Below are positions 7,024-26,034 of a DNA stretch of 64,000 nucleotides, piece by piece; within the stretch, counting starts at the first letter, position 1; each line of letters begins with the position of its first letter. The stretch covers positions 40,746-104,745 of the forward strand of contig JARLJH010000034.1 of NCBI GenBank assembly GCA_031291305.1, read 5' to 3'. Below the pieces are notes generated by a model. It made no database searches. It saw only the letters and a list, made by a program, of their open reading frames with translations, and was not told the origin of the DNA. A program made the position numbers and the translations under genes. The stretch is from Rhodoferax sp. (GTDB taxonomy: Bacteria > Pseudomonadota > Gammaproteobacteria > Burkholderiales > Burkholderiaceae_C).

Positions 7024-7065
7024 GATGTTTCCTTGGGTAAATTAAAATAGGTTTGCGGACCGGGA

Positions 7066-7908: not shown

Positions 7909-7957
7909 CTCATACTCCTTGAATTGGCTATAACCTAAGACGTCACTGTAAGTGGCC

Positions 7958-7987
7958 AACTCTTCATTGAATAGCCGTCAAAGAGTT
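7958..7987. promoter_or_regulatory. Inverted repeat in LysR/SDR divergent intergenic region (candidate operator)
   Basis: AACTCTT (7958-7964) and AAGAGTT (7981-7987) form a 7-bp inverted repeat with a 16-base spacer, midway between the divergently transcribed SDR (start 7908) and LysR gene (start 8042). LysR-type regulators bind dyads of this sort in such divergent promoters. The assignment to this particular LysR is inference from position. Confidence 0.4.
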
Positions 7988-8041
7988 GCGCGACAATCAA
8001 TAAAAAATTGATACTGATGCCGTCTGCGTCGACCTACCACA

Positions 8042-8995
8042 ATGCCCATCAATGAACTTCGTGCCATCGACACTTTTGCCAAGGCCGTTACCTTGGGCAG
8101 TATTCGCCGTGCGGCCATCGCGCTAGGGGTGTCACCACAAGCGGCGAGCCAATCGCTGGCCCAACTGGAACAGCACTTAGGGGTGCGTTTGCTGCACCGC
8201 ACCACCCGCAGCCTGGCGCTCACCGACGAGGGGCAGCGCTTTCTGGAAGCCACGCAGCCTGCTCTGGCGGCATTGGAACGGGCTCTGAGTCTCGCCCGCG
8301 AATCCAAAGATGAGATTGCTGGACCGCTGCGCATTGTGGGTCCTAGGTCGTCCTTTGCGAGCATCTTGATGCCGGTGATCGACGAGTTCTGTCGACTTTA
8401 CCCAGATATCCAGCCGGATGTGCAACTCGATGACGGGATCGGCAATTGGGTGCTGGACCGCGTGGACGTGGGCTTCCGGATTGGAACCTCACCGGAGGAA
8501 GGCGTCATTGCCCGCCGGTTGTTCCCGATTCAATTGATCATCTGCGCCGCACCAAGTTACCTAGCGCGTTTTGGCATCCCGAAGACCGTGGACGACTTGG
8601 TGTCGCACCGCTGCAGCGTTTTTCGCCACCCGGCCACCGGTCAGATCCTGCCCTGGTACCTCAATGTCGATGGTGAAGTTGTACACCACCACGTCACGCC
8701 TACGCTTTCAAGCAACGACACCGAACTGGAAATGCAGGCGGTGTTGGACGGCCAGGTGATGGGCCAGATTTCCAACATGTCGGCGGCCGGACCCATTCGC
8801 GGTGGTCAACTCGTGCCGGTACTGCTTCAGCATATGAGTGAGCACATCGGTCTGCATATCTACTATGGCAACCGCACTGCACAGCCCAAACGCGTGCGCG
8901 CCTTCATCGATCTAGCGCTGGAACGTCTTTTGAATACACCCGACTATGTTTTGAGCGAGAAGGAGTTGGACCAAGCAGGAGGCACCGCTGGGTAA
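8042..8995 (+). CDS. LysR-family transcriptional regulator
   Basis: 317 residues. Residues 1-60 form the winged helix-turn-helix: FAKAVTLGSIRRAAIALGVSPQAASQSLAQLEQHLGVRLLHRTTRSLALTDEG is the canonical LysR signature region. The remainder is the two-lobed effector-binding domain (ILMPVIDEFCRLYPDIQPDVQL). It is divergent from the SDR-alcohol dehydrogenase-NmrA set with a 133-base intergenic gap, the classic arrangement for a LysR regulator controlling its neighbour. It is convergent with the Bcr/CflA gene. The effector is unknown; an aldehyde or other electrophile would fit the neighbours. Confidence 0.93.
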   Translation: MPINELRAIDTFAKAVTLGSIRRAAIALGVSPQAASQSLAQLEQHLGVRLLHRTTRSLALTDEGQRFLEATQPALAALERALSLARESKDEIAGPLRIVGPRSSFASILMPVIDEFCRLYPDIQPDVQLDDGIGNWVLDRVDVGFRIGTSPEEGVIARRLFPIQLIICAAPSYLARFGIPKTVDDLVSHRCSVFRHPATGQILPWYLNVDGEVVHHHVTPTLSSNDTELEMQAVLDGQVMGQISNMSAAGPIRGGQLVPVLLQHMSEHIGLHIYYGNRTAQPKRVRAFIDLALERLLNTPDYVLSEKELDQAGGTAG

Positions 8996-9142
8996 GTTGA
9001 GTCGACGTCGCCTACTGTCCAGAAGCAGTGAGGGTTGAACACGGGCCATTCATTGATGCCCTATTCTCTCTGGACCTGGTGTCAAAAAGCTCACTCATTC
9101 CATCGATTCGCAATGGGTTTTTGTTTTAATTGATCAGGTGTA

Positions 9143-10402
9143 TCACACGGATTGGAGCGTGCCTGTCCTTTCCGCAGTGCCGCGAGGCCCACGACGGGTT
9201 TGGAGCATGGCAGTCAGCAGGCAGCCGATGCCAGCAGCTGCAACGATCCAGCCCATCGTCCAGGGTGTGCCGTCGGCAAACCAGCCGAGCATGGCGGCGC
9301 TGAACACGCCGCTGCCGTAGTGCATGGCGCCGACCAGAGATGAGACTGAACCCGCTTGTTTGGGGAAGGCCGCGAGAGCACTTGCCACCGAGTTGGCGAC
9401 GATCAGGCCGCTGACCGACATGTAGCAGAAGATCGGCAGTGCGAGCCCAGCCAGGCCGCCCCAGCCGAAGTAGGCATTGACGGCCAGTGCGATGCCCGAG
9501 CCGGCGGCGATCCAGGTGCCAAAGCGAAAGATCTCGTTGGCGCGGAATCGCCGCAGAAGCCGGGTGTTGAAGTAGTTCACCCCCATCAGGCCGATGATAT
9601 TGGCGCCAAAGATCAGGCCGTAGTAACGCGGCGAGAGTTGGTAGTAATCAACATAGGCAAATGGCGTGCCTGCGATGAAGGCATAACACCCACCATAGTA
9701 AAAACCGCCGGATACTGCATAGACCAGCAACTTGCCGTTGAAAGCAAGCTGCAGGTAGGCGCGCAACGTGTAGCCAAGCGATGCATTGCTGCGTTTGGCG
9801 GGTGGCAACGTTTCAGGCAGCAGCTTGAGCGCGAACAACGTGGCGAGACCCAAAGCGGTCAGCACCCAGAAGATCACTCGCCAGGTCCAGAAATGGATGA
9901 TCTGGCCGCCCAGCAGCGGGCCGATCAGAGGTGCTGCCGCCATCATCAGGATCAGCACCGACAGCATGTGCGCCGAGCGTTCGCGGGCGTACAGGTCGCG
10001 CACCATGGCCCTTGCCAGCACCGGCCCGGCGCAGGCGCCGAGCGCCTGGACCACGCGCCAGATAAGCATTTGGGAAGCCGTTGCCGACATCGCGCAGCCG
10101 ACCGAGCCCAGAATGAACAATAGCAGGCCGATGGCAATCGGTCGCCGACGGCCGTAGGTGTCGCTGATCGGACCCCAGAACAGCTGGCCAAGGCTGAAAC
10201 CGATCAGGAAGGTCGAGACGGTGAGTTCGATGCGCGCCATGTCAGCATGAAGATCCACGACCAAGGTCGGTAGGGCGGGCAGGTACATGTCGACAGAGAT
10301 CGACGCGAAGGACATCAGCGCGCTGAGAATGATCAGGATGCGCAAATCGTGCTCGTGCGGCGCTTCAGAGGTTGTGGCTTCGATGGTGCTGGATGGGCGC
10401 AT
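9143..10402 (-). CDS. Bcr/CflA-family multidrug efflux MFS transporter
   Basis: 419 residues, 12 predicted transmembrane helices. Family hallmarks are visible: SVDMYLPALPTL in helix 1, FLIGFSLGQLFWGPISDTYGRRRPIAIGL (the MFS motif A between helices 2 and 3, positions ~65-95), and RVVQALGACAGPVLARAMVRDL in helix 4. It would export small hydrophobic drugs or metabolites using the proton gradient. It is the last gene of the eight-gene minus-strand operon, 54 bases after the metallo-hydrolase, so it may expel a product or toxic substrate of that pathway. Confidence 0.9.
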   Translation of the reverse strand: MRPSSTIEATTSEAPHEHDLRILIILSALMSFASISVDMYLPALPTLVVDLHADMARIELTVSTFLIGFSLGQLFWGPISDTYGRRRPIAIGLLLFILGSVGCAMSATASQMLIWRVVQALGACAGPVLARAMVRDLYARERSAHMLSVLILMMAAAPLIGPLLGGQIIHFWTWRVIFWVLTALGLATLFALKLLPETLPPAKRSNASLGYTLRAYLQLAFNGKLLVYAVSGGFYYGGCYAFIAGTPFAYVDYYQLSPRYYGLIFGANIIGLMGVNYFNTRLLRRFRANEIFRFGTWIAAGSGIALAVNAYFGWGGLAGLALPIFCYMSVSGLIVANSVASALAAFPKQAGSVSSLVGAMHYGSGVFSAAMLGWFADGTPWTMGWIVAAAGIGCLLTAMLQTRRGPRGTAERTGTLQSV

Positions 10403-10456
10403 GGTATTTTTTACAGGCCAAGTCGTACCGCCGCTGTGAGAGACGGGTTACTAGGC

Positions 10457-11596
10457 CTAGGGTGTGTCGGCAAGAACGAGATTTACTGGAGACGGTGTTC
10501 CGTCAAGCCACCAGGCGCTACCGCGCTGGGGATCAAGGAATCTGATGCGCTCACCCATGACCGGTGTGGTCACCAAAGCCTGGTTTGCGGCGGCGAGCTG
10601 GGTTATCTGTTTGAGTGGATCATCCCAGACATGCATGGCGAGATCAAAGGTGCCGTTGTGGATCGGGAACAGCCACTTGCCGCGCAGGTCGCGAAATGCC
10701 TGGAAGCTTTCTTGCGGCTGAATGTGCACGTAGGCCCATTTGCGGTCATAGGCACCAACCTCGATAAAGGCCATGTCGAACGGACCATAACGATCACCGA
10801 TGGTTTTGAAACCATTGAAATAGCCACTGTCGCCGCTGAAGAACAGGTGGAACTGCGCGTCCAGCATGACCCACGACGCCCACAGCGTGCGATCACTGTC
10901 GGAGAAGCCGCGCCCCGAGAAGTGTTGCGCGGGGGTGGCGACGAAGCGGATGCCGTCGACCTCGGTCTCATCCCACCAGTCCAGCTCGCGCACCTGCTGC
11001 GCTGCAATGCCCCAGGAGACCAAGAGGTGTCCCACACCCAGAGGAGCAAGAAAAGTCTTCGTCTTGGCTGCCAGTTTGAGCACGGCGTCATGATCAAGAT
11101 GGTCGTAATGGTTATGCGAAAGGATCACTGCTTCGATCGGCGGCAGTTCTTCCAGCGTGATGGGTGGCGCGTGAAAGCGCGCCGGGCCGAACCATTGCAT
11201 GGGTGAGGCACGTTCACTGAATACTGGATCAGTTAGCCAGAACTTGTTGTGCATTTTCAACAGCAATGAGGAGTGACCCAGGCGATAGACGCTGTTGTCT
11301 GGTGCGTCAAGAAGCTCGGCCTGGGTGATGGTGCGGACAGGAATGGTGCGATCCGGCACCGTTCCAGGTGGTTTCTTGAAGAAGAACTCGTAATAGAGCT
11401 TCATGTGCTGTATGAAGCTCTGTGGCGGGCGCGGCACGGGGTTGTGAAACCTACCGTCATAGAACTGGGCGGAGGCTGAATAGTCAGGATCGGCAGGCAA
11501 AAGCAGCGAGGCAGCAGCGGTCAAGAAAAGGACTCCGAGCAGGAGGGCAGCAAGAGACTTGCCTGCCCAGGTGTGGATGACGGGTATTGTTTTCAT
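10457..11596 (-). CDS. Membrane-anchored metallo-beta-lactamase-fold hydrolase (UlaG/NAPE-PLD-like)
   Basis: 379 residues. A single hydrophobic segment (about residues 13-33, SLAALLLGVLFLTAAASLLL) acts as signal anchor, placing the enzyme domain on the periplasmic side. The metal site motif SHNHYDHLDH is HxHxDH, preceded by GHSSLLLKM and DPVF and followed by PAQHFSGRG and FSGDSGY, the pattern of the NAPE-PLD/UlaG-like subgroup of MBL-fold hydrolases, which cleave phosphodiesters or lactones. The substrate is unknown. It lies 9 bases after the DUF4405 membrane protein gene and is clearly part of the same operon. Confidence 0.85.
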   Translation of the reverse strand: MKTIPVIHTWAGKSLAALLLGVLFLTAAASLLLPADPDYSASAQFYDGRFHNPVPRPPQSFIQHMKLYYEFFFKKPPGTVPDRTIPVRTITQAELLDAPDNSVYRLGHSSLLLKMHNKFWLTDPVFSERASPMQWFGPARFHAPPITLEELPPIEAVILSHNHYDHLDHDAVLKLAAKTKTFLAPLGVGHLLVSWGIAAQQVRELDWWDETEVDGIRFVATPAQHFSGRGFSDSDRTLWASWVMLDAQFHLFFSGDSGYFNGFKTIGDRYGPFDMAFIEVGAYDRKWAYVHIQPQESFQAFRDLRGKWLFPIHNGTFDLAMHVWDDPLKQITQLAAANQALVTTPVMGERIRFLDPQRGSAWWLDGTPSPVNLVLADTP

Positions 11597-11605
11597 TGGG
11601 CTGGC

Positions 11606-12370
11606 TCAGTCAGTCTGTTCACGCATGGACGTGGTGCAGTAGCGCCTGCAGAAACCACCACAGGTTGAACGAAGCCAGAAGAAAGTGCGGACAAACGGGT
11701 TTTTGTAGCCTTTGTAGGCTTGCAACGCGTAATACGCCAAGCAAGCATAGAGCCCCATGATGGTCAGATACTGAATGAAAAATCCAGCCACTGATTCATC
11801 GAAATCCCAGTAATCAAACGAGTAGTACGCCACCAACTTGGACAAAATGCCACGCTCGAACGAGGCGTAGATGCCAGTGACAAGGATGGCGCAGGTGGTG
11901 GCATGCAGCACAAAGCTGCGTTGTCGAGAGGGTTGATGGACATCGACAACACGCCGACCCTCGGCCATGACCATCTTCCAGTGCATGCCAAGATGGATAC
12001 CGGCCAGGATCAAGAACCAGTGGGCAGAGGCGGTATGGAATTCTCTCGATAGCAGGTCAAGCTCGACATGAGTTAGTGAAAACAGCAGGTCCGAATTCAG
12101 CAAGCCGCTCACAAGCATCAGCAGGGCAGAGATGAACACTGCGCTGTTGATTACCAGCGTGGTGATGCGCAGGCCGCTGTAGCGGCCCTTGAAGAGGGCT
12201 CCGAACCATTTCCAGTTCAATCCACCGTGCAGTACGAACAGCAGGAACATCGAGATGCCGAGCCATTCATGGACCGTGCTACCGGTGAGTTCATAGGCGA
12301 ACTCCACCAGAATCAGCGTCGTCATGATGGCGTCAAGCGAGAGTTTCCTGGACAGACTACGGGTCAACAC
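11606..12370 (-). CDS. DUF4405-like integral membrane protein, possible b-type haem protein
   Basis: 254 residues with about six hydrophobic segments. Histidines fall within or next to helices: H34 (VHEWLG), H48 (LHGGLNW), H112 and H117 (FHTASAHW), H126 and H130 (GIHLGMHW). This pairing of His between helices is what cytochrome b561-like and DUF4405 proteins use to hold haem; haem binding here is inferred. The C-terminal tail has three Cys (CGGFCRRYC). Gene gaps to the neighbours are 15 and 9 bases. If it binds haem it could pass electrons across the membrane to the exported flavodoxin encoded two genes upstream. Confidence 0.6.
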   Translation of the reverse strand: MLTRSLSRKLSLDAIMTTLILVEFAYELTGSTVHEWLGISMFLLFVLHGGLNWKWFGALFKGRYSGLRITTLVINSAVFISALLMLVSGLLNSDLLFSLTHVELDLLSREFHTASAHWFLILAGIHLGMHWKMVMAEGRRVVDVHQPSRQRSFVLHATTCAILVTGIYASFERGILSKLVAYYSFDYWDFDESVAGFFIQYLTIMGLYACLAYYALQAYKGYKNPFVRTFFWLRSTCGGFCRRYCTTSMREQTD

Positions 12371-12385
12371 CTTGGGTTTCTCCGG

Positions 12386-12841
12386 TCAGCGCGCCAGCTC
12401 AATGCGCATCTCGACCACTTCGCCCAGCGCGTCAAACAGCGTGAGATCTGAGCTGACTTTGCCGATGACGATCAGGTCCGAGATGTCCGGGTTAACCTTG
12501 TTGTTGAAAAAGATTGCAAAGGAGCCACCGCTGGGCCACCAAGCAACGTCACCGTTGTCGAAACCATTGCGTCTGGGTGATTGGTCAGACAGTTTCAAGC
12601 CGGGTTTGCCGTAGTATTCGCGGTCACCCCAACGCGTCATTTTCAGAGTGATCGGCAAGGCAGCGATGAATTCGCGAGCCGTATTGTTGTCGTTGAGTTT
12701 GGCGTTGAACACGGCGTTACCGGCATGAATCGTGATTGAGGTGCTGGTTATCGCAGCGGCAGTGCTCATACCTGTCGTGAGTGCGGTGGCTACCATCAAT
12801 GCGCCAAGATTGGTAGATGTTGATGCCATCGTTTCAGACAT
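12386..12841 (-). CDS. Exported cyclophilin-like fold protein
   Basis: About 151 residues. A hydrophobic N-terminus (LGALMVATALTTGMSTAAA) looks like a signal peptide, though its n-region lacks Lys/Arg. The rest (ITIHAGNAVFNAKLNDN, FIAALPITLKMTRWGDREYY, GDVAWWPSGGSFAIFF) matches the cyclophilin-like domain often found next to flavodoxins and aldo/keto reductases. Such proteins are not shown to be prolyl isomerases. The ATG at 12841 overlaps the end of the flavodoxin gene (stop at 12834), implying coupling; a start at 12829 is possible, and the long upstream extension of the frame is antisense of nothing recognisable. Confidence 0.7.
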   Translation of the reverse strand: MSETMASTSTNLGALMVATALTTGMSTAAAITSTSITIHAGNAVFNAKLNDNNTAREFIAALPITLKMTRWGDREYYGKPGLKLSDQSPRRNGFDNGDVAWWPSGGSFAIFFNNKVNPDISDLIVIGKVSSDLTLFDALGEVVEMRIELAR

Positions 12842-13535
12842 TGAGCATGCCCAGCTTGTGTAGCCAGTCGCTGACATCGCGCTGGGCCGAATCCGATTGC
12901 ACTTTGTCGATGCCGCCGCCACGCAGGGCAAGTCCTTCAAGAAGGGTGGCATTCGGACAGATGGCACGGACATCGCTTAAGCTGCTGCCAAAGTGGCTGC
13001 CTTCGTGCGTGCAGAACGGGATCAGCGTTTTGCCAGCAAAACGGTATTGCTCAAGAAAGCTGAAGAAGGCCATTGGCAGCGTATCCCACCAGTTTGGGAA
13101 ACCGATGAAGACAAGATCGTAAGAAGCCGCGTCTTGCACTTCGGCGGTAAGCTTTGGCCTAAAGGCTGCTTGTTGCTCTTTTTTGGCCTGGTTGGTGGTC
13201 GCGCGGTATTCCTTCGGATAACTGTGGGTGGTTTGCAGCTCGAACAGCGTGCCACCCGTCTGGCGCTGAATCTGGTTTGCCACCTCGCGCGTAGTGCCAG
13301 TGCGAGAATAGTAGGCAATCAGGATTTTGCCGCTACGGCGCGGCGCGGCGAACACCGAGGCACTGCCGGTTATCAGCGGGACAGCAACGCCGGCGACCAA
13401 GCCGGTTGTGGCTGCATGCAGGAACTTGCGTTTGGATGCCTTCACCCCTGCTTTGCTGGAAACGGCGTCATTTTCATCATTGGCAGAGACTGCCGCATGA
13501 GCATGGATGTTTTCAGTCAAAGCAGTGCCTTTCAA
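12834..13535 (-). CDS. Exported flavodoxin-like FMN protein (KR-type Tat-like signal)
   Basis: 233 residues. The mature part (from ~65) is a flavodoxin: ILIAYYSRTGTTREVAN is the FMN phosphate loop, and DLVFIGFPNWWDTLP and PFCTHEGSHFGSSL are the isoalloxazine-contact loops. Before it lie ~34 polar residues, then SKRKFLHAATTGLVAGVAVPLITGSASVFA, which resembles a twin-arginine signal with KR in place of RR, including the following F-L. Cofactor-loaded export by Tat would suit a flavoprotein. Flavodoxins are normally cytoplasmic, so this location is unusual. It overlaps the cyclophilin-like gene downstream and follows the aldo/keto reductase gene by 24 bases. Confidence 0.82.
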   Translation of the reverse strand: MKGTALTENIHAHAAVSANDENDAVSSKAGVKASKRKFLHAATTGLVAGVAVPLITGSASVFAAPRRSGKILIAYYSRTGTTREVANQIQRQTGGTLFELQTTHSYPKEYRATTNQAKKEQQAAFRPKLTAEVQDAASYDLVFIGFPNWWDTLPMAFFSFLEQYRFAGKTLIPFCTHEGSHFGSSLSDVRAICPNATLLEGLALRGGGIDKVQSDSAQRDVSDWLHKLGMLNV

Positions 13536-13559
13536 AAGTTGGTGTGATGAGACGGGAGG

Positions 13560-15009
<1,450 letters not shown>

Positions 15010-15020
15010 GTCCTTTGGTT

Positions 15021-15764
15021 TCAGTATTCCTGCCTTGTCGGGCGAAACAGGATTTCGTTGATGTCCACGTCATCCGGCTGGCTGATCGCGAAGGCCACCG
15101 TCCGGGCGAACGAATCGGCAGGAATTGCATAGGCGTCGTAGAAGTCTTTCAAGCGCTGGGCCACATCGGCTTCGGTTGCGCTGCCGGGCAGCTCGGTGGC
15201 GACGGCGCCCGGTGAGATGATGGTGCTGCGGATGTTCCAGGCCTTGACCTCCTGGCGCAGGCCCTCAGACAGGGCGCGTACCGCATGTTTGGTGGCGGAG
15301 TAGACCGCACCACCCGGGCCGACCTTGTGACCGGCGACCGACGACACATTGATGATGTGCCCGGCCTTCTGACGCTGCATGTGTGGCAGGGCTGCGGCGA
15401 TGCCATACAGCACACCCTTGATGTTGACGTCGATCATCTGGTCCCAGTCATCGACCTTGATGCGGTCCAGCGGCGACTGCGGCATCAGCCCGGCGTTGTT
15501 GATCAACACGTCGATCCGGCCGAAATTCTGCACGGCCGCGTCGACCAGCGCCGACACCTGTGTACGCTGGGTGACATCGGTGGCACGGGCCATTGCTCGG
15601 CCGCCCTTTGTGATCAGCTCGTCGGCCAGTGCCTGGATGCGCTCCAGGCGGCGCGCACCCAGCACCACGGTCGCGCCCTCGGCGCTGAGCAGCCGCGCAG
15701 CGGCCTCGCCCAGCCCGCTGCTGGCGCCGGTGATGACAATGACTTTGCCTGAAATGTTATCCAT
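15021..15764 (-). CDS. Short-chain dehydrogenase/reductase (YdfG-like), first gene of operon
   Basis: 247 residues, a complete classical [22 protein letters not shown] (TGxxxGxG cofactor loop), [15 protein letters not shown] (NNAG), [11 protein letters not shown] (catalytic Ser), [12 protein letters not shown] (Tyr-x-x-x-Lys) and [17 protein letters not shown] preference is suggested by GARRLERI after strand 2. The substrate is unknown. It heads the eight-gene minus-strand cluster. The ribosome binding site (GGAG, about nine bases upstream) lies inside one arm of a perfect 9-bp inverted repeat, so its translation or transcription is probably controlled there. Confidence 0.9.
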
Positions 15765-15766
15765 CG

Positions 15767-15794
15767 GTTCAACTCCTATAACGCTGAGTTGAAC
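15767..15794. promoter_or_regulatory. Perfect 9-bp inverted repeat covering the operon's ribosome binding site
   Basis: GTTCAACTC (15767-15775) and GAGTTGAAC (15786-15794) are exact inverted copies with a 10-base spacer, just upstream of the start codon at 15764. On the coding (minus) strand the downstream arm contains the GGAG of the ribosome binding site. It could be a DNA operator for a dimeric repressor, or an RNA hairpin that hides the ribosome binding site. Confidence 0.55.
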
Positions 15795-16185
15795 TTTAGA
15801 TGGGTACTTATCAATTAACTAGCGGTCAAATGCTTGAATGAGAGTAAAGCAAATATTGCCAATCAACAACCAACGACTCAGCATAATCCAAATTCCGTGT
15901 GAAATAAGTGCCGCGAAAGCGGCCACCTGGGAGCACCTGCTATTGGTCGTCACGAGACGACCACTTTGAGGATGGGCAACCTCGGTAGCGGACATTGGTG
16001 GCAAAAAAACTGTAGACGCGTGAATGTCGGCTATCAGGCATCGATTTGGGTATTTGCTACGACAGCAATGGGTCGCTATGTAGAGCTCTCCATAGCGACC
16101 CCTATGCACAGGTCTCAACTATGTGTAGTTTGTGGTTCGGTCGGTTGTTACGTCGAAAGGCAAAGGCGCCGACCTCCCCAAGTAG
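15795..16185. other. Gap without a recognisable gene between SDR operon and Ntn hydrolase
   Basis: Several short open frames exist on both strands, but none shows a known domain or a ribosome binding site. The gap would hold the promoter of the operon that starts at 15764. It also contains the large palindrome at 16070-16101 and one arm of a long inverted repeat, described separately. It looks like debris of a former mobile element. Confidence 0.5.
16070..16101. repeat. 32-bp near-perfect palindrome
   Basis: GGGTCGCTATG at 16070 is followed by an AGAGCTCT core and the exact inverse CATAGCGACCC, giving 16-base half-sites with a single mismatched pair (T opposite C). It directly adjoins the left arm of the inverted repeat at 16099-16433. 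Such structures occur at insertion-sequence ends, recombination sites or strong operators; which applies is not clear. Confidence 0.6.
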
Positions 16186-16433
16186 CTATTCATAGTTTTC
16201 GCTGACCTCTGGTCGATGATTGTGGATGCCATTCGCAGCACGGGTGCTCGCCGGAAGAAGGGCCGTTCTCCCGACCCGAGATAACTGTCCAGTAATCCCC
16301 GCTCTCGCATCGGTCCACCTGGAACGTGGCCCATAGCCCCGGCTCAGCCTATGGCGCGGAATTATGTATAGGTCTGCATGCGCCTTAACAAGAAGGCTTC
16401 CTCCAAACTCTCCATAGTTGAGGTCTGTGCATA
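16099..16433. repeat. Long inverted repeat, arms about 38 bases, about 260 bases apart
   Basis: The plus-strand arm begins GACCCCTATGCACAGG at 16099 and runs through TCTCAACTATG to about 16136. The minus-strand arm, read from 16433 downward, begins GACCCCTATGCACAGA and continues CTCAACTATG to about 16396. The first 27 bases agree at 25 positions and similarity continues weakly beyond. The right arm lies inside the 3' part of the Ntn-hydrolase frame. The arrangement could be a non-autonomous mobile element or an inverted partial duplication of the gene's 3' end. Confidence 0.5.
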
Positions 16434-17055
16434 GGGGTCGGGTCCTGCTCATGGTAACCTTGGCAAACGCCTCGTCAAACCATGCCAATCGCTGCTCCAA
16501 GTCCAACCCTTCGTACAGCCGCTTCACGAAACTATTGATTTCCTCCAGTCCAACGGCTTTTTCAAAGTTACTGCTACCGCTACCAACGTGAAGCAGTATG
16601 GGACTGGCGTTCGCCCGTCTGGCATAGAGCTGCACAGCGTGGGTAAACGGTGTGAACAGGTACAGGCTGGAGAAAAATGCGCCTTTGTCCGGGTCAAAAA
16701 ATGTCACGATGGGCTGGTTTTCCATCACCGCCTCGTTATTAAGCATCCGGTCTCGGGCGTCGAAGTCGAATGCCAAATGAACAAAATCACTGACGCACTC
16801 CAGCGCGGTCTGGCCATCGCTCACCTCGGAAAAAGCTCCTAGATAGCCATGGTCACCAACGGTGCCCGCAATCCCAACGGCCTGATCAGCGTTCTTGCTC
16901 AAGTAGATTTTCTGAACACCGTCGATCCCGGTGTTGCCCGACGTAGTGATGGAGATGCCGGCGGCGAAGATGCTGACCGGCCCATCTGACTTCCCCCTGC
17001 GGTCGGCCGCGAGCAAAGAATAGTCCTTGTGCAAGATGTTGAGTACAAAGGTCAT
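16186..17055 (-). CDS. Proteasome-beta/HslV-like Ntn hydrolase (putative self-compartmentalising peptidase)
   Basis: 289 residues from the ATG at 17055. The N-terminus is MTFVLNILHKDYSLLAADRR. Removing Met exposes Thr1, Asp then falls at mature position 17, and a Lys in GVQKIYLS matches the catalytic Lys33 of 20S beta subunits after a ~15-residue insertion. AVGIAGTVGDHGYL, LLHVGSGSS (the GSGS loop, 158-161) and FGGSLLVKAHADLYI follow in the proteasome order. The protein could process peptides as an HslV/Anbu/BPH-like ring. No unfoldase gene is adjacent. The last ~60 residues look unrelated and overlap an inverted repeat, so the natural C-terminus may be altered. No clear ribosome binding site; the frame extends upstream to 17193. 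Confidence 0.6.
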   Translation of the reverse strand: MTFVLNILHKDYSLLAADRRGKSDGPVSIFAAGISITTSGNTGIDGVQKIYLSKNADQAVGIAGTVGDHGYLGAFSEVSDGQTALECVSDFVHLAFDFDARDRMLNNEAVMENQPIVTFFDPDKGAFFSSLYLFTPFTHAVQLYARRANASPILLHVGSGSSNFEKAVGLEEINSFVKRLYEGLDLEQRLAWFDEAFAKVTMSRTRPLCTDLNYGEFGGSLLVKAHADLYIIPRHRLSRGYGPRSRWTDARAGITGQLSRVGRTALLPASTRAANGIHNHRPEVSENYE

Positions 17056-17175
17056 GTGTTCAAAAAACAGGTAAATGCTGTTGTTGTGGGTCAAAAAGTG
17101 CCCGGATGGGCACGGGCCAAAGGAGTCCGAATGCACCGAAAAATGCGCCGTCTCGACGGACTGCTGGAAAAGGCT

Positions 17176-17305
17176 AACCGCTACAATTTGCACGAAAATC
17201 AGTAACTCTCAAAATTTAGGTACTTCATAAGTCATTGATTTATATAGGTTGTTATTTTGAAACCGCTACAATTTGCACGTAAATCAGTAACGCTTAAATT
17301 TTAAG
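17176..17305. repeat. Pair of 45-bp direct repeats at the transposase 3' end; partial third copy near tRNA-Gly
   Basis: Copy 1 (17176-17220) and copy 2 (17261-17305) both begin AACCGCTACAATTTGCACG and agree at 39 of 45 positions, 40 bases apart. Copy 2 overlaps the transposase stop codon and ends TTAAG at its inner side, as Tn3-family terminal repeats end TAAG. An 18-base relative (CGACAATTTGCACGAAAA) lies near 20354-20371 in the same orientation, next to the tRNA-Gly promoter. The same orientation at both sides is not what a simple Tn3 element with inverted ends should show, so the ends are rearranged or these are host sequences duplicated around the element. Confidence 0.55.
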
Positions 17306-20252
17306 CACCACCGCTAGCTCTGCGTTTTTGGGGCGGCTGATCCAGCAAAGCATCGGCATATCGCTCCACGCCAAAGGCCATCAGCCCGCGGAAATTGATG
17401 TGCTCGAAATGTACCGGCCCCATGCGACGCAGCCAGGCGTCTTCAATCGAGTGCTTTTCCTTGCGCCAGCGATCGACGACTTGCTGCATCTTCATGGTGT
17501 TCCAGGCAATGACCAGATTGGTCAAGAGCGCGTGTGAACCGGAAACCGCCCGGATTTCGTCCCGCCGGCGTCCTCGCTCCGCAGCCAGCCGCCCGAAATA
17601 GATAGCCCGCTGCAGCTGGTGGACCGACTCTCCGCGGTTCAACAGGGTGTGCATTTCACGCCGAAATTCAGGATTACTGAAGTAGTCACACAAAAACAAT
17701 GTCCGCAACAGGCGCCCCAGCTGGTCCGCTGCCTTGTGCATGGGATCACCCTGAGCTGAGGAGCCCATCTTCTCCAGCGCTTCCTTGGGTGTCAACCGGC
17801 CGCTACGAATGGAGGCAATCAGTCGCAACAGCTCATCCCACCCTTTGTGAATCGCGCGCTCCGACACATTGGTGAGCGCGATGCGTTCCAGGTTCTCTGG
17901 CAGTTTGACGGATCGGGGCAGGTAAAGCCGACGCTCTGAAAGATCCCGCATCTGGGGACACAAATCAAACCCCAGGAACTTGCTCATAGTCATCGCAACA
18001 AAGGTATACCCGTGGGTATCAACGGCCAACATGGACAGACGCATGTTTTCATCGGTCTGTGCCGCGTTGTATTCCTCAACACCACTTACGGCCACGGACC
18101 CTTGCCGTTCGTTGTGGACGATAGGCTCGTCATGGGCAACTCCGTACACATCCAGGACGTGGGTGTAGAGACCAATCGCTCGGGTGCGACGCCGTGGATC
18201 GGTTCTGGAGTTGTAGAGGTGCCGGGAAGCATCCAGCGCCATCATGTCCGAAGACGCCTTGGTGCCAGAGCCCCAATTGGCCGTGATGGAGTGCTGGCGC
18301 TGGAACTCCACCACACGATCGTTAGCACGGCGCAGGCGCCCATGGGCTTCCAGGGAACGCATCGCAGCAGAAATATGGGCGACCTCGACACCAGGAATCA
18401 TCGCGGCCACGCCCTTGGCATCGTTCTCCGTACCGTGGGCCAATAGCGCCGCGTAGCAGGAGACCAGCTCCTGGGTGGACTTAGCGCGCCGCCCCAACAG
18501 AACTTCGCTGAATCCGGTTGCGGCGTCCATTTCGACAATGATGTCGCCGATCTGAACCTCCCCGATACTGGCAAACATCATGTTTCGGCTCGCGTCAATA
18601 GCCTTGTCTTGTGCCAACGCCTCTATCTAGGGCAAATGCACAAGGCCACTGTCGTCAATGCTGACTTCACCAGCCTCGACTGATTCCGATAGGGCTTGCA
18701 GACCTGCCTCCAGGTGGGCGTACAGCCGGGTGAGGAATTTTTCTGGATCCGCATTCAGGCTCAAAGCGCTGATCAAGCGCAACCGGTCTTTCTTCCATTG
18801 CGCCGGTGGGATGAGCAAGTCCTCACGGTTTCGGTAATCCCAGCTGTGATCCACCCAAAGCCGGGAACTGCGAAAACCATGACGCACTGCCATCATGGTG
18901 GCCGCCTTCAATGCTGCGAACGCTTTGCTCCGATCCTTGACGTTGAGCATTTCATGCCAGACTGGATCGACAATGCTCACATCAAAGTCAGCTGGTAGCT
19001 CCTTAATACCTTTGGCATCCAGCTCCCGGAGTGCCATCACCTGTTTGAGCGGCCGTTGCGCAGCATCACCCTTGATCTCCAGATCAGAGAAGACATTCAG
19101 CAGGGACGTCACCTTCGTGGTGTCGTCTATCAGAGACTGGCGAACCAGGGCGGAGTGCCCAATTGCTGCAATGGGCTCATCGTTGGGAATGAGCTTTTTG
19201 AGGGCTTCGATCTTTTCGTCAGACGTGCTTCCTTCTGCGTGGATGATCAATCGCATTTCATCCCGCTGCTGCCGGTATTCGACAGCGGTACGTGCCTGCT
19301 TGCTAAGAACACGCCCCGATGCATGCCGATACAAATCATTGACACGGCGCCCGGTCAAATACATAAGGGTGTCGGTGAGATCCAACAGGGTGACTCGCAA
19401 GAAGCAGATGACCTCCAACATCTGGGTGTCATCGCTTAGGCGCCGGGTGTCAAAAGGCGGCCGGTTGGCTACGGCTTGGGCATAGGCGCGCATTCGTGCG
19501 GTGGAGATGTGACTCAAAGGCCACTTATCGACTTCAAGCGTCTTGAGATAGGTGATCTTTTCTGAGACTTCCGACAGCGTGGTCGGGCTGTGTTTACCTG
19601 GTGGAGTCTTGAGCCATTCCAGCATGGTGCCGCCCGTGCGCCCTCGGCGTGGTGAAAACACTGCGGAAACCATGTTCTTGCGCACCGAAGCAGGAATTTC
19701 CTTCTTGATTCCTGCCATGGCCAAGGCCTCTGTGGAGGCAAAAGATTCGCGGGCGAGATCGCGCAAAACCCGGTCTGAAGGGAGAAGATAACGGCGATCA
19801 AATAGCCATCGCTCAGCAGCCTGAACCAAGTCATCCACAGAAACTGCCGTATTGCTCAGCTCGGCCAACGCTATTGCTAACTCAGCCAAAACAGCGTCGT
19901 CGGCATCGCTTATTCCTGCGGTATCACGGGCCCATTTTTGATGGTCATAGAGAGTTGCGCGGCGCTCATAGATGGTCTTGAGAGAGGCTATCGCTGTTTC
20001 GCCCAAGACTAGGGAATGACACAAAGATCTGAGTAGGCTGCGCGGGAGATAGGTCGCTCGGTCAAGAACTCGACCGGTGGCACGTAGTACAACGAGCTGA
20101 ACTGCAGCACCAAGCCTGCGGTCTGTCCGAAAGCGTTCGCGGATTGCCGCGATGTCCCCAGAACTCAGCTTAAAAGACTGCTCGACATCAAAGTCTGAAA
20201 GTGACTTTGGAAGCTCCTTGGAGCCGACGAATCGCAAATGAAATCCGGCCAA
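17301..20252 (-). pseudogene. tnpA: Tn3-family transposase TnpA, split by an in-frame amber codon
   Basis: Two frames in the same phase, 20252-18627 (541 residues) and 18617-17301 (438 residues), are separated only by TAG at 18629-18627 and add up to ~980 residues, the normal TnpA length. The first part has the DUF4158-like and central domains. The second holds the Tn3 DDE domain: ASSDMMAL, then VDTHGYTF..., and NRGESVHQLQRAIYFG supplying the catalytic acids in order. A TTG start at 20252 is supported by AGGGAG upstream. Without suppression of the amber codon the catalytic half would not be made attached to the DNA-binding half. No resolvase gene is present nearby. Confidence 0.82.
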
Positions 20253-20401
20253 AGCATCTCCCTGTGGGGTTGCAGTTGCCGAACACTATAACTGGCGACG
20301 GGATGGCTATTTTGAGAGCTTTTCAAGCAAGGGTTTACCCTTGGTTGAAAGCGCGACAATTTGCACGAAAACCTAGATCACCCCTGAAGCGAAGGGCGTT
20401 C

Positions 20402-20407
20402 TATAAT
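20402..20407 (+). promoter_or_regulatory. -10 element (TATAAT) of tRNA-Gly
   Basis: A consensus TATAAT lies 8 bases upstream of the tRNA gene. No convincing -35 hexamer is seen 16-18 bases further up, where the sequence begins to resemble the transposon-side repeat; the original -35 region may have been replaced by insertion. Confidence 0.55.
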
Positions 20408-20415
20408 GGCGGCAC

Positions 20416-20489
20416 GCGGGTGTAGTTCAATGGTAGAACGGCAGCTTCCCAAGCTTCATACGAGGGTTCGATTCCCTTCACCCGCTCCA
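20416..20489 (+). tRNA. tRNA-Gly (anticodon CCC)
   Basis: A full cloverleaf: acceptor GCGGGTG pairs with CACCCGC, the T arm is GAGGG-TTCGATT-CCCTT, and a genomic CCA follows. The anticodon loop TTCCCAA gives CCC, reading GGG glycine codons. The anticodon stem GCAGC/GCTTC has one C-U mismatch at the second pair. The transposon and accessory region lie on its 5' side, the core genome on its 3' side. Confidence 0.93.
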
Positions 20490-20562
20490 AGCGCAGCGTT
20501 TGATATCCCAAAAAAGCGATGAAATCTCAATTAATTCAATGAATTACATCCGAGACTGCATC

Positions 20563-20775
20563 CTATTTGTCACGAGCCTTATTCTCTGCTGCGTCATCCC
20601 AGGTCGCCCAATCTACTTCAAGAACTTCCGGAACTGGTAGCGTACGCGGAAATTCACGCCGCTCTCGCAATGCCGTTGCCCATGTATTGGCAGACTGGTC
20701 AGTACGTGTTGCGGCCCTATTTGCCACTTTGGCGTGCTCAGTATCCGAGGGTTTCAAAAGTTTTTTAAATAACAT
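20563..20775 (-). CDS. Small hypothetical protein
   Basis: 70 residues starting MLFKKLLKPSDTEHAK, rich in charged residues, with VPEVLEVDWATWDDA near the C-terminus. I do not recognise the family. There are no membrane segments. The ribosome binding site is weak. It stands alone between tRNA-Gly and a membrane protein gene on the minus strand. It could be a genuine small protein or a chance frame. Confidence 0.35.
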   Translation of the reverse strand: MLFKKLLKPSDTEHAKVANRAATRTDQSANTWATALRERREFPRTLPVPEVLEVDWATWDDAAENKARDK

Positions 20776-20861
20776 GTTGCCTATACTTTAAGTGCAACAA
20801 ACCATAACGCCAAGTCCGACACCGCAACAGGGTTAAAGCAAGCCCGAGGGAGCTAGGCAAC

Positions 20862-21194
20862 TTACTCTTTTGGTTTGTCGCTATGTGACACCTCATATCC
20901 ATCGGCGACGTAGGCTGGCCCTTTCATCAGCCAGACGATGATGCAGCCAATGCCTACCGTCAAACCAGTTGCCCAAATAAAGGTGGCAACCCCCAGCATG
21001 ATGAAATCAAAAATTTCAATTCGATGCTCAATCTCCGAGGCACTACCTTCGGTGAATGCAAGACGGGCCATCCAAGACGACAGCGCTGGTAACACCGCAC
21101 CCGCCAGTAGTATCTGTGGCATCAACCGCAACAGACGCAGCTCAAACCCATAAGGGGTTCGCTGGAATCCAGGCAGTTTGTTAAGCCACTTCAT
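20862..21194 (-). CDS. Small membrane protein of unknown function
   Basis: 110 residues with two strong hydrophobic helices: about residues 26-46 (LMPQILLAGAVLPALSSW) and 66-90 (IMLGVATFIWATGLTVGIGCIIVWLM), and a hydrophilic tail. An aligned start codon and a frame undisturbed by stops support a real gene. It lies 21 bases downstream of the acetyltransferase gene, so it probably belongs to the glmM transcription unit. I do not recognise a named family. Confidence 0.6.
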   Translation of the reverse strand: MKWLNKLPGFQRTPYGFELRLLRLMPQILLAGAVLPALSSWMARLAFTEGSASEIEHRIEIFDFIMLGVATFIWATGLTVGIGCIIVWLMKGPAYVADGYEVSHSDKPKE

Positions 21195-21215
21195 AAAGTC
21201 ATTGTAGGCAAGACC

Positions 21216-21719
21216 TCAAAGCCACTTCTGCATGAACAGGGCGTGGCCCAGGCTGGGCTCCAACTGATAGTTTTCAAAGCCGATACGACGGTAAAGCCGC
21301 GCCGCAGGTGCGTTGCCAGACAACACTTCCAGGGTGAGCTTGCAGGCACCCCGATCAAGTGCCAGTTGTTCCACCAGCCCCAGCATCTGCTCGCCAATGC
21401 GTTGCCCGCGGTGAGAGGCAGCCACCACCACGTCGTGAATATTCACCAAAGGACGGCAGGCGAACGTCGAAAAGCCCTCGACACAGTTGACAAGGCCAAC
21501 CGGCAATCCACCCAGCGCGTCATCAAATGCCAGTACGCTGAACATAAAGGGGCGTGCCCGCAAGGCCGCTGGCAGATTGGCTTTGGTGAAGTCGGACAAG
21601 GGCTCCGCACCGCCCGCGTTGTCGCGAGCATAAGCGTCCAGCAGGTCGACCAGCGCAGCCGTGTGTGCTGGGTCGTTGTAATCGGCGCGAATCAGTCTCA
21701 AGGATACGGCTTGACTCAT
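21216..21719 (-). CDS. GNAT-family N-acetyltransferase
   Basis: 167 residues. The acetyl-CoA pyrophosphate loop is [13 protein letters not shown] (Q/RxxGxG/A motif A), preceded by the strand VNIHDVVVA, and motif B follows as [16 protein letters not shown]. The substrate cannot be told from sequence. Its ATG overlaps the stop of glmM as ATGA, so it is translationally coupled to phosphoglucosamine mutase, although GlmU normally does the acetylation step of that pathway. Confidence 0.88.
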
Positions 21720-23062
21720 TCCAAACTCTCCGGCTGAACGATAGTTTTGGCGATACGCTGCGCACAGGCCTTGGCTTGGGCGGCATCACGTGCTTCTACC
21801 ATGACGCGTAACAGTGGCTCCGTGCCGCTGGCACGGATTAACACGCGTCCGCTTTGACCTAATTCAGTCTCTACGGCGCGGGTTTCCTCTTCCAGTCTCG
21901 GGCTGGCTTTCCAGTCCTGGCCGGGTTGCAAGCGCACATTGAGCAGGGTTTGTGGGAACAAGGTGACATCTTTGAGCAACTCCGTGAGGCGCTGGCCGCT
22001 ACGCACCACTGTCTGCAACACCTGCAGCGCAGATATCAGACCGTCGCCCGTTGAATGTTTGTCCAGGGCCAGCAGATGACCAGAGCCTTCGCCACCTAGC
22101 AGCCAACCGTTCTTATCCAACTCTTCCAGCACATAGCGGTCACCCACTTTGGCGCGTACAAAAGCGACGCCACGTGATGTCAAAGCCACTTCAACCGCCA
22201 TGTTGGTCATCAGGGTACCCACCACACCAGGCACAGCTTCACCACGGCGCAGCCGGTCAACCACCATCAGGTACAGCAATTCGTCGCCATTGAACAGACG
22301 GCCCTGGGCATCGACAATTTGCAGCCGGTCAGCATCGCCATCGAGTGCCACGCCCATGTCTGCACGGTGTGCCTTGACAGCGTCGACCAACGCATCTGGG
22401 TGCGTGGCTCCTACGCCGCGATTGATGTTCAGCCCGTCGGGCGCACAGCCAATCGAAATCACCTCTGCGCCCAATTCGTGAAACACCTTGGGCGCAATCT
22501 GGTAAGCCGCACCGTGGGCGGCGTCGACCACAATGCGTAGACCCTTGAGCGTCAGGTTGTTGGCAAACGTACTCTTACAAAATTCAATGTAGCGCCCTGC
22601 CGCATCGTCAAGGCGACGAGACTTGCCCAGGTTGGCCGAGTCCACCCAGACCGGATCCATGGCCAAAACTGCCTCTACATCACGCTCCCACTCATCCGAC
22701 AGCTTGGTGCCCTGTGCGCTGAAAAACTTGATGCCGTTATCGTCAAATGGGTTATGGCTTGCGCTGATGACCACACCCAGCGAAGCACGCTGCGCACGTG
22801 TCAGGTACGCCACGCCGGGTGTGGGCAAGGGGCCAAGCAGCACCACATCAACCCCCGCCGAGTTAAAACCACTCTCCAACGCGCTTTCAAGCATGTAGCC
22901 CGAGATACGAGTGTCCTTGCCGATCAGCACTGTGGGCCGTGCCTCCGAGCGCTTAAGCACCCGGCCAACCGCATGCGCCAAGCGCAATACAAAATCCGGC
23001 GTAATGGGCGCTTGCCCCACCGTGCCACGAATGCCATCTGTTCCAAAATATTGACGCGTCAT
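21716..23062 (-). CDS. glmM: Phosphoglucosamine mutase
   Basis: 448 residues, the standard length. It converts glucosamine-6-phosphate to glucosamine-1-phosphate on the route to UDP-GlcNAc for peptidoglycan and lipid A. FGTDGIRG at the N-terminus and [18 protein letters not shown] around residue 100 carry the phosphorylated Ser102. The metal-binding loop is [11 protein letters not shown], and [14 protein letters not shown] near the C-terminus binds the sugar phosphate. It follows folP by 35 bases in the conserved ftsH-folP-glmM order. Confidence 0.97.
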
Positions 23063-23097
23063 GAGGGAATATGTCCTTGTGAATCAATCTGTGTTGG

Positions 23098-23964
23098 CTA
23101 AGCTGATCTTATCGCCTCAAGCACCTTTAAAACCTGCACGGTTTCCTTGACATCGTGTACGCGAACAACCGAGGCCCCTTGCTGCACAGCGCACATTGCC
23201 GCCGCCAGACTGGGAGCCAGGCGCTCTTGGGGAGCTAGTTTTTCGCCTTGGTCGGCGTGCGCAGTCATGCCCGCCAACGACGACTTGCGTGACCAGCCAG
23301 CCAGCAAGGGGTAGCCCGCTGCCAGCAGTTCCGACTGACGTGCCAGTAGTAAAAAATTCTGAGCCACGGTCTTGCCAAAGCCAATACCAGGGTCCAACAT
23401 GATTCTGGTCTTTTCGACCCCTAGCCCCTGTAAATCCTGGGCAGACAGCTCTAAAAACGAGAGTACCGTGGGCAGCACATCGCCGGTCATGGGCTGCACC
23501 TGCATGGTCTGCGGCTCCAGATGCATGTGCATCAGACACACGCCACAACTTGGGTGCCTAGCCACCACGCGCGTGGCATCGGCCTGGCCATGCGCGTCAC
23601 GCCAGCGCAAGGCCCAAACGTCGTTGATGATGTCGGCTCCGAGGTCCAGCACGTCCTGCATGACCTGTGGCTTGTAGGTATCCACAGACACCGGTACGCC
23701 CAGCTTGACAGCCTCCTTGACCACGGGAACAACACGTGCCAATTCCTCTTGCAGGCTCAGCGGCGCTGCACCTGGCCGGGTGGACTCGCCGCCGATGTCC
23801 AGAATATCAGCGCCCTCGTGGATCAACTGTTCGCAATGACGCAGCGCAGCTGTGGTCGTGCCATGCTGACCACCGTCAGAAAAAGAATCTGGCGTGATAT
23901 TCACAATCCCCATCACCCGAGGGGAGCTCAGATCAATCTGAAAGCGGGTGGTTTGCCAGTACAT
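23098..23964 (-). CDS. folP: Dihydropteroate synthase
   Basis: About 288 residues. It condenses 6-hydroxymethyl-dihydropterin pyrophosphate with para-aminobenzoate in folate synthesis and is the target of sulfonamides. Visible motifs: MGIVNITPDSFSDGG, ADILDIGGESTRPGA (both family signatures), DPGIGFGKT, and a C-terminal RVHDVKETVQVLKV. The start is uncertain: ATG at 23964 gives the usual N-terminus, while a TTG at 23997 would add 11 residues; neither has a good ribosome binding site. It lies between ftsH and glmM, as in many beta- and gammaproteobacteria. Confidence 0.96.
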   Translation of the reverse strand: MYWQTTRFQIDLSSPRVMGIVNITPDSFSDGGQHGTTTAALRHCEQLIHEGADILDIGGESTRPGAAPLSLQEELARVVPVVKEAVKLGVPVSVDTYKPQVMQDVLDLGADIINDVWALRWRDAHGQADATRVVARHPSCGVCLMHMHLEPQTMQVQPMTGDVLPTVLSFLELSAQDLQGLGVEKTRIMLDPGIGFGKTVAQNFLLLARQSELLAAGYPLLAGWSRKSSLAGMTAHADQGEKLAPQERLAPSLAAAMCAVQQGASVVRVHDVKETVQVLKVLEAIRSA

Positions 23965-24014
23965 GGTCAACAAAAACGGGGCTTGCGCCCCGTTCAATGA
24001 AAGGTTGATCAGAA

Positions 24015-25934
24015 TCAGGCAGCGTGAGGCGCCGCGTCGGTTTTTACGGCAGGTGTGCCACCACTGCCATTATCAGAACCAGCGACAGGGATACGTGGTG
24101 TCCAGTCTTTGGGAGGACGCGGGTCTTTACCAGCCATGATGTCATCAAGCTGCTCACTGTCAATGGTCTCCCATTCCAGCAGCGCTTTGGCCATGGTATG
24201 CATCTTGTCGCTATTTTCCTCAATCAAGCGGCGCGCCAAAGCGTACTGCTCGTCGATGATACGGCGCACTTCAGAGTCCACCTTCTGCATCGTTTCTTCG
24301 CTCATGTTGGTGGTCTTGGTCACCGAACGGCCAAGAAACACTTCGCCTTCGTTTTCTGCATAAACCATCGGACCTAGCGCCGCCGTCATGCCATAACGCA
24401 TGACCATGTCGCGAGCGATTTGTGTGGCGCGCTCAAAATCATTGCTGGCACCGGTGGTCATCTGGTTCATGAACACTTCTTCTGCAATCCGGCCGCCAAA
24501 CAGCATGCTGATCTGATTGAGCATGTAGTCTTTGTCGTAGCTGTAACGGTCTTGTGCAGGCAAGCTCATCGTCACGCCCAGGGCACGCCCACGCGGGATG
24601 ATGGTGACCTTGTGCACCGGATCACACTTGGGCAACAGCTTGCCAATCAGTGCGTGGCCGGACTCGTGGTATGCCGTGTTGCGGCGTTCTTCCTCGGGCA
24701 TGACCATGCTCTTGCGCTCCGGGCCCATGAGGATCTTGTCTTTGGCTTTCTCGAAGTCCTGCATTTCCACCGTGCGTGCATTGCGCCGGGCGGCCATCAA
24801 GGCCGCTTCATTGCACAGGTTAGCCAAATCAGCACCGCTCATGCCAGGGGTACCGCGAGCGATCACGCCGGGGTTGACGTCCGGGCTAACTGGAACCTTG
24901 CGCATGTGTACATTCAAAATCTGTTCACGGCCACGAATATCAGGCAGTGTCACGTACACCTGGCGGTCAAAACGACCTGGTCGCAGGAGCGCAGCATCCA
25001 GAATGTCCGGGCGATTGGTGGCCGCCACAACGATCACGCCCACATTGGTCTCAAAACCATCCATTTCAACCAGCATCTGGTTCAGCGTCTGCTCGCGCTC
25101 GTCGTTGCCACCGCCCAAACCGGCACCACGCTGGCGACCCACCGCGTCAATTTCATCGATAAAGATGATGCAAGGCGCGTTCTTCTTGGCGTTATCAAAC
25201 ATGTCTCGCACGCGTGACGCGCCGACACCCACAAACATTTCCACGAAATCCGAGCCTGAGATGGAAAAGAACGGGACCTTGGCTTCGCCAGCAATGCTCT
25301 TGGCCAGCAGCGTTTTACCGGTTCCGGGCGGGCCCACCAAGAGCAAGCCGCGCGGAATACGGCCACCAAGCTTCTGAAACTTGGCTGGATCCTTCAGAAA
25401 GTCCACGACTTCCTTGACTTCTTCCTTGGCTTCGTCGCAACCGGCCACATCGGCAAAGGTTACGGTGTTGGTGTTTTCATCCAGCAAACGGGCCTTGCTT
25501 TTGCCAAAGCTGAACGCCCCACCTTTGCCACCACCCTGCATCTGACGCATGAAATACACCCAGACACCTATCAACAAGAGCATCGGGCCCCAGCTGACCA
25601 GCAAGGTCATCAGGACCGAGCCTTCTTCCTTGGGACGCACATCAAACTTGACATCATTGGCAATCAGGTCGCCGACCAGACCCCGATCAAGATACGTCGC
25701 TGTCGTGCGAATATGGCGTTCATCGCTGGTCACGGCGAGAATCTCGGTCCCACTTTGACCTTCCATGATGACGGCACTTTTGATATGGTTGTTGCGGACT
25801 TCATCCAGAAAATCAGAGTAGCCGACATAGCCAGCACCAGCCGTCGGACGGGCGTCAAACTGTTTGAAAACAGTAAACAACACCATTGCGATGACCATCC
25901 AGACCGCAATTTTTGAAAACCATGGATTGTTCAA
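24015..25934 (-). CDS. ftsH: ATP-dependent zinc metalloprotease FtsH
   Basis: 639 residues, a membrane-bound AAA+ protease that degrades misfolded membrane proteins and regulators such as LpxC in E. coli. Two N-terminal membrane helices ([12 protein letters not shown] and [18 protein letters not shown]) flank a periplasmic domain. The AAA module has GPPGTGKT (Walker A), [15 protein letters not shown] (Walker B) and the second region of homology [20 protein letters not shown]. The zinc site is HESGH. I place the start at TTG 25934 because TTGGAG lies six bases upstream; the longer frame begins inside that site. It is cotranscribed with rlmE. Confidence 0.97.
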
Positions 25935-26034
25935 GCGAAGCTCCAATAAAAACGCATGACAGGCGTTGACAACTCAATAGCCCGGATTCTAGGCTTTTCA
26001 ATAGCTTGCGACCCAGGCAGCTGATTGATCAACC

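Follow-up and report, generated by a model that had tools for sequence, protein, structure and literature searches.

A probable family of solitary proteasome-like Ntn hydrolases linked to an IS882-like transposase, with a dead remnant in Rhodoferax sp.

Is the open reading frame that follows a Tn3-family transposase gene in Rhodoferax sp. a proteasome-like Ntn hydrolase, and does it travel with the transposon? Proteasome-like proteins are usually viewed as cellular machines. Our analysis of the window (the whole 64,000-nucleotide stretch, positions 40,746 to 104,745 of contig JARLJH010000034.1) and of related loci leads us to consider it probable that the gene represents a family of solitary proteasome-like Ntn hydrolases that is rare, moves horizontally and is carried as cargo by IS882-like elements, the window copy being a dead remnant. 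If this is true, transposons join phages as vehicles of proteasome-like genes, with copies that are intact and under selection, and the family, though not its remnant in the window, would offer a small solitary enzyme for probing what proteasome folds do when no unfoldase is present.

Structure of the window gene

The frame (17055-16186, minus strand) is open over 289 aa, starts MTF and reads, in order, MTFVLNILHKDYSLLAADRR...GVQKIYL...GIAGTVGD...HVGSGS. A preliminary description of this DNA had pointed to a Thr at residue 1 and an Asp at residue 17 after Met removal, to a Lys in GVQKIYL and to the subsequent blocks GIAGTVGD and GSGS; both residues are present in the frame and the translation bears out the order. 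Two further observations in that description do not belong to the gene: GGSLLVK, taken as another proteasome-like block, falls outside the native gene in a foreign piece bounded by inverted repeats, and the 'altered C-terminus' is the product of a junction with foreign DNA. The features at this end are as follows.

16456..17055, minus strand: proteasome-like Ntn hydrolase gene (best reading), surviving residues 1-200 (identity to L002 and L003; alignments A2 and A3)
16186..16455, minus strand: foreign 3' extension, residues 201-289, including GGSLLVK (the C-termini of L002 and L003 differ)
16404..16440, minus strand: inverted-repeat arm by the broken gene end (37 nt, 86% complementary to 16096-16132)
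16096..16132, minus strand: second inverted-repeat arm (pairs with 16404-16440)

At window position 16457 the DNA homology to L002 and L003, both of them intact, comes to an end; the intact proteins run on as VSAIDTGCSSSYEAVIATRD and stop after 241 residues. The window copy is thus a dead remnant, with a stop in its transposase gene and an enzyme gene without its 3' end. It is the single copy of the proteasome-like gene in its own genome. Both this truncation and the recurrence of the transposase link described below were overlooked in the preliminary description.

A stretch at approximately 16061-16130 of the window recurs on Methylomonas and Methylotuvimicrobium plasmids, at two and three places per record. 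Window 16061-16440 forms a short element bounded by inverted repeats, the right-hand part of which is the plasmid-recurring piece; we take this element to be MITE/TIME-like.

Relatives and distribution

Two intact copies are closely related to the window protein over its residues 1-201, namely L002 from a betaproteobacterial MAG (94% identity) and L003 from Curvibacter sp. CHRR-16 (90% identity; L004, from G287, is the same contig). More distant relatives are L006, on an IMG/VR viral contig (45% identity to protein P0002), and L011/L012, which have identical translations in two genomes of one family (40% identity to P0002). Intact relatives span 228-241 residues. The start of L011 is fixed at Met-Thr because an in-frame stop sits four codons upstream of its GTG-Thr, with three codons in between. 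L005, from a Pseudomonas aeruginosa plasmid with IS30 copies nearby, is a truncated fragment with 26% identity.

The scan of genome contigs had a sensitivity limited to close relatives, and the frequency samples overlap partly, with the gene's own genome counted in each. The gene was found in 2/299 genomes of the family sample and matched in 4/399 of the order sample (the latter including the later-rejected L010), and in the own genome alone in the class (1/369), phylum (1/398) and genus (1/89) samples. This patchy spread fits horizontal transfer of the proteasome-like gene. L010 (G511, E 8e-5) lies antisense to a frame that we named by eye as OmpA/Pal-like, and was dropped as a chance match.

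Scans of viral contigs with A3, L006, L011 and L005 as queries returned no further relatives. A BPH-like query had no matches among phages and plasmids, and two BPH-like sequences used together yielded a single relative, L119, among viral contigs. Searching PHROGs with alignment A3 gave single-member matches, the strongest being with an unnamed family at E 0.0054; PADLOC returned no matches for A3. Between the intact copies L002 and L003, dN is 0.056 and dS 0.446 (dN/dS 0.125), and the gene is under purifying selection.

Active-site residues

Thr2, Asp18, Lys49 and Gly64, which correspond to proteasome Thr1, Asp17, Lys33 and Gly47, occur in every one of the five rows of A3, the identities to P0002 being 89%, 45% and down to 40%. 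The preliminary description had staked its reading on conservation of this Thr among homologues, which is what the alignment displays. The equivalent of Ser129 lies in GSGS in four of the five rows and in GTGS in L006. In alignment A1, the truncated fragment L005 keeps Asp18, Lys49 and Gly64, and Thr2 is absent. The reported excess of ~15 residues between Asp and Lys holds when the host HslV is the reference and shrinks to ~12 against a BPH-like protein.

Profile searches

In curated libraries the family goes largely unrecognised. The window protein has no match in Pfam or NCBIfam at E<=10, the Pfam Proteasome profile PF00227 matches none of the five rows of A3, and NCBIfam searches with P0002, P0003, L006 and L011 returned weak unrelated matches (E 0.07-0.12). 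As controls, the HslV and Anbu-type proteins of the host both match PF00227, and HslV and one BPH-like protein match NCBIfam HslV/proteasome models. Close kinship to proteasomes is therefore disfavoured, since the same libraries recognise HslV, Anbu-type and BPH-like proteins and miss this family; their recognition of other divergent members also weighs somewhat against our main reading and towards a chance resemblance. Sequence searches of the PDB with the window protein and its relatives gave no proteasome match. They did return armadillo-repeat proteins, which we rejected as sums of many tiny matches to repeat proteins.

Custom profiles gave a weak positive signal. For hhalign we used 22 HslV, 15 Anbu-type and 2 BPH-like sequences, 8/30 HslV matches having been excluded from the HslV profile on account of a start pattern that did not fit. 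The family scored 23.5 against HslV+BPH and 27.0 against the pan profile (HslV+BPH+Anbu), and neither score was reached by any of 250 column-shuffled profiles. Against HslV alone the score was 19.4 (7/250 shuffles as high), against Anbu alone 18.9 (22/250 shuffles as high) and against BPH, a profile of two BPH-like sequences, 14.4. All hhalign probabilities were <8%, with E-values of 0.004-0.27. When reversed, the family profile still reached 22.8 against the pan profile and, against Anbu, 22.7, which exceeds the 18.9 of the real one. The hhalign alignments span the Lys and Gly blocks; those printed (BPH, HslV+BPH and pan) begin at residue 31 or 35, with Thr1 and Asp17 outside.

The HMM comparison proposed in the preliminary description gave no proteasome match with the curated Pfam and NCBIfam models and a weak signal with the HslV+BPH profile, for P0002 and P0003. 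In hmmsearch with that profile, P0002 and P0003 reached 9.2 and 7.9 bits, whereas 200 shuffled sequences got no higher than 4.4 bits. L006 (2.7 bits) and the row of the window protein (4.0 bits) both stayed under that shuffled best; L011 was not among the best eight matches listed. The BPH profile (two sequences, 'BPH-like' by our own naming) gave a best score of 3.2 bits against 2.9 for shuffled sequences, which is not significant.

It is conceivable that short motifs in an unrelated conserved hypothetical protein mimic a proteasome active site. That no curated profile ties the family to proteasomes, when the same libraries recognise HslV, Anbu and BPH-like proteins, speaks for such a chance resemblance, as does the weakness of each statistical test taken singly. 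We nevertheless regard it as unlikely, given that the N-terminal, +17, Lys/Gly and GSG residues stay fixed at 40% identity (GTG in one row) and that the comparison of profiles, the HMM search and the search by fold all lead to the same superfamily.

Predicted fold

Two template-free AlphaFold models were made from different queries; both are poor and unreliable (mean pLDDT 36.6 and 34.5). The order of elements in these low-confidence models (a pair of strands, a second pair, helices, further strands, two long helices and a last strand) is that of a proteasome beta subunit and fits an alpha-beta-beta-alpha fold with helices H1-H4. In Foldseek, the first model had Trypanosoma brucei HslV as its top match (E 0.27), followed by the Thermoplasma acidophilum 20S proteasome, and proteasome, HslV or Anbu accounted for 18 of the best 50 of 221 matches. 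For the second model, a 20S proteasome chain ranked first (E 0.035), the best matches were six 20S chains, and 42 of the best 50 of 72 matches were proteasomal. These counts are non-independent evidence, because the PDB contains many near-identical proteasome chains, and neither model had a match at E<=0.001. The structure prediction that had been suggested as a check therefore returned proteasome-type folds as best matches, none of them significant and all from unreliable models; the fold is supported, short of proof.

A proteasome-like Ntn hydrolase is the best reading of the gene, although no single test is significant. It rests on the order and conservation of the active-site residues, a profile signal above shuffles and top fold matches of the proteasome type.

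Comparison with known proteasome homologues

The proteasome/HslV-type reading in the preliminary description remains the best one. Its narrower placement in the 'BPH/Anbu group' is unsupported, as Anbu alone gave no signal and the best signals came from pooled profiles; the family could be placed in none of HslV, BPH, Anbu and PPH. With HslV it shares active-site blocks in the same order and weak local alignments (24% identity over 87 columns for HslV, 29% over 76 for HslV+BPH), but no HslU lies next to the present gene. It resembles Anbu in its comparable length and Met-Thr start, whereas its profile signal to Anbu is not above shuffles. BPH, according to PMC5777263, has Thr1, Asp17, Lys37, Gly50 and Ser139, lacks a propeptide and is not known to work with an unfoldase, and by that account the present family is alike in the missing propeptide, the active-site Thr1, Asp17, Lys, Gly and Ser and the missing partner unfoldase. 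It is unlike BPH in its length (241 residues vs 188), its spacing from Asp17 to Lys, longer by ~12 residues, and its mobile-element setting. PPH likewise occurs in phages, as L006 does on its viral contig, but is described by Fuchs et al. 2021 (PMC8665760) as having ~140 residues and lacking helix H2, in contrast to the 228-241 residues found here.

The same paper presents 22 proteasome-homologue families beyond proteasome, HslV, Anbu, BPH and connectase, many of whose novel members are only slightly similar to known homologues. It states that some families are phage-borne (phage carriage being given for PPH and AAH) and reports for the novel families no genomic surroundings from which a function might be guessed; the word stem 'transpos' is absent from the main text. 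A 'new class', as proposed in the preliminary description, is possible, but not separable from membership in one of these 22. That it is instead a divergent member of one of them (e.g. GPH or DPH), with the transposase link as the only novelty, is a serious possibility, though not the one we favour. The number of novel families fits it, as do the marking of DPH for Proteobacteria only and the naming of GPH after Gammaproteobacteria (PMC8665760), and so does the 26%-identical fragment on the Pseudomonas aeruginosa plasmid; the class and phylum samples, which yielded the own genome alone, argue against it. In a search limited to open-access papers we found none tying an Ntn hydrolase or proteasome homologue to a transposon or a passenger gene; other literature may exist.

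The transposase and its element

The preliminary description had placed the gene next to a Tn3 transposon, and a transposase gene does lie just upstream on the same strand. The features of this part of the window are as follows.

17301..20252, minus strand: IS882-like Tn3-family transposase gene (tnpA), 983 codons and stop (Pfam DDE_Tnp_Tn3 and DUF4158)
20347..20384, minus strand: terminal repeat at the left end of the Tn3 element, beginning GGGG (36/38 identical to the L002 left end)
17259..17296, minus strand: first of two internal, directly oriented copies of the terminal-repeat motif that follow tnpA (25/38 matches to the L002 left end)
17174..17211, minus strand: second internal copy of the motif (25/38 matches), 85 bp further on
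20416..20489, plus strand: tRNA-Gly on the host side of the insertion (ARAGORN)

The window tnpA is broken by one in-frame stop, and those of L002 and L003 are open. Element DNA of the window is 85.6-89.8% identical to L002, L003 and L028. In the window, L002 and L003, tnpA and the gene form a pair at unrelated sites, in the same order and orientation and with 223-246 bp from the tnpA stop to the ATG. Both parts of the pair have diverged similarly between L002 and L003 (86.8% and 88.1% identity).

Homology among the copies begins <=3 bp from the GGGG end (window 20384, L002 4696, L003 4672), and the similarity of the window to L115 (G1404, same genus) reaches 20393, which supports the left boundary of the window element. 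In the empty-site comparison, no relative resumes beyond the window insertion and the L003 comparison was uninformative. In the copies with the gene (window, L002 and L003), our searches revealed neither a right end nor a convincing 5-bp target duplication, the L002 contig stopping 778 bp after the gene.

Paired left-end-like motifs, 85 bp apart and in direct (not inverted) orientation, occur behind tnpA at window 17174-17296, L002 7782-7904, L003 7759-7881 and L028 9088-9210. Two candidate structures were rejected: an inverted repeat near L003 13193, which lies inside another frame and whose score of 30 was reached by 1/300 shuffles, and an integron attC behind the gene, considered by eye, for which the hairpin folded better than shuffles in L002 (z -2.96) but not in L003 (z -0.78). 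Matches to promoter and terminator patterns in L002 were about as many as expected by chance.

We drew tnpA copies from a plasmid collection, 120 genomes of the family and the gene's own loci. Four had at least 85% DNA identity, three of them with the gene and one (L028) without; the element DNA of L028 is 94% identical to L003, with a last homologous position (L003:7908) that lies short of the gene. Five more distant tnpA relatives were inspected up to 6 kb behind tnpA, with clear inverted ends of 35-41 bp in L030, L032 and L033 and none in L029 and L031. L033, on the Ni-2 plasmid of C. metallidurans, is a 7.5-kb IS882-type transposon (3043-10531) with 41-bp ends, in which genes for a site-specific integrase and two hypothetical proteins fill the space from tnpA to the right end. 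Since it carries these three annotated genes there, cargo behind tnpA has a precedent in this element type. The gene-bearing copies share the DDE_Tnp_Tn3 transposase and the GGGG left end with IS882/Tn3-family elements, and are unlike them in having no recognised right end and two extra direct copies of the motif.

Carriage of the gene by the element is supported, short of proof. The gene might merely adjoin an IS882-like insertion without being its cargo, as the gene-free element DNA of L028 and the lack of a right end found beyond the gene would allow. We think this a poor bet, considering the constant order, orientation and 223-246 bp spacing in three genomes with different flanks and the similar divergence of both parts.

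In L030 (Cupriavidus necator pHG1), two genes with an abortive infection family annotation are situated at 7462-9118, ~1 kb past the IS882 right end.

Gene neighbourhoods and putative function

As the preliminary description had it, no unfoldase adjoins the gene: the nearest AAA+ gene seen in the window encodes an FtsH-type protease (24015-25946), ~7 kb off and outside the element. Inspection by eye of the ORF lists of window 8000-27000, L002, L003, L006 and L011 revealed neither HslU nor another unfoldase beside the gene, and the shared partner gene for which a comparison of neighbourhoods had been advised was likewise not seen in the lists. The neighbours are tnpA in the window, L002 and L003, and insertion sequences in L011. 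The host possesses an HslV of its own, next to which lies an AAA+ gene (L034), and a further gene with a PF00227 match (L035), which we take to be Anbu-type.

Removal of Met1 is established for Met-Thr proteins. By analogy, methionine aminopeptidase would remove Met1 here and probably expose Thr as residue 1, the nucleophile; the Lys33 equivalent and Asp17 would activate it, with the equivalents of Gly47 and Ser129 completing the site, and Thr1 could then attack peptide bonds. We infer, from the absence of a propeptide and of a dedicated unfoldase in sight, that the enzyme most likely acts alone on substrates that are unfolded or peptides, either cleaving them or processing them in a specific way. 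Its gene would ride as cargo behind an IS882-like tnpA and be carried by phages or prophages elsewhere.

A stand-alone peptidase is our simplest guess, with a specific processing or ligating enzyme as the main rival on function. Under the latter, the proteasome fold would serve a processing enzyme or a connectase-like protein ligase with a target in the element or host, an option that we consider quite improbable. The 12-15 extra residues between the Asp17 and Lys33 equivalents are compatible with it, since connectase carries a specificity insertion between strands S3 and S4 according to PMC8665760, as is the absence from the ORF lists of an unfoldase or partner gene common to the loci. The low-confidence models do not fix the place of the insertion, and they predict helices in the H1/H2 region, whereas connectase is described as lacking H1 and H2. 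A solitary peptidase-like enzyme would presumably benefit the element. That this is a new, unnamed, unfoldase-free Thr-nucleophile family spread by transposons and phages, possibly with a role dedicated to mobile elements (for example to process one of their proteins or to disarm defences of the host) and not one in general protein breakdown, is a speculative and rather unlikely extension.

In L006, the neighbours of the gene are phage lysis genes, Rz and a cell-wall hydrolase. The same contig has an epimerase-like gene (2500-3519, named by eye) amid its phage tail and lysis genes.
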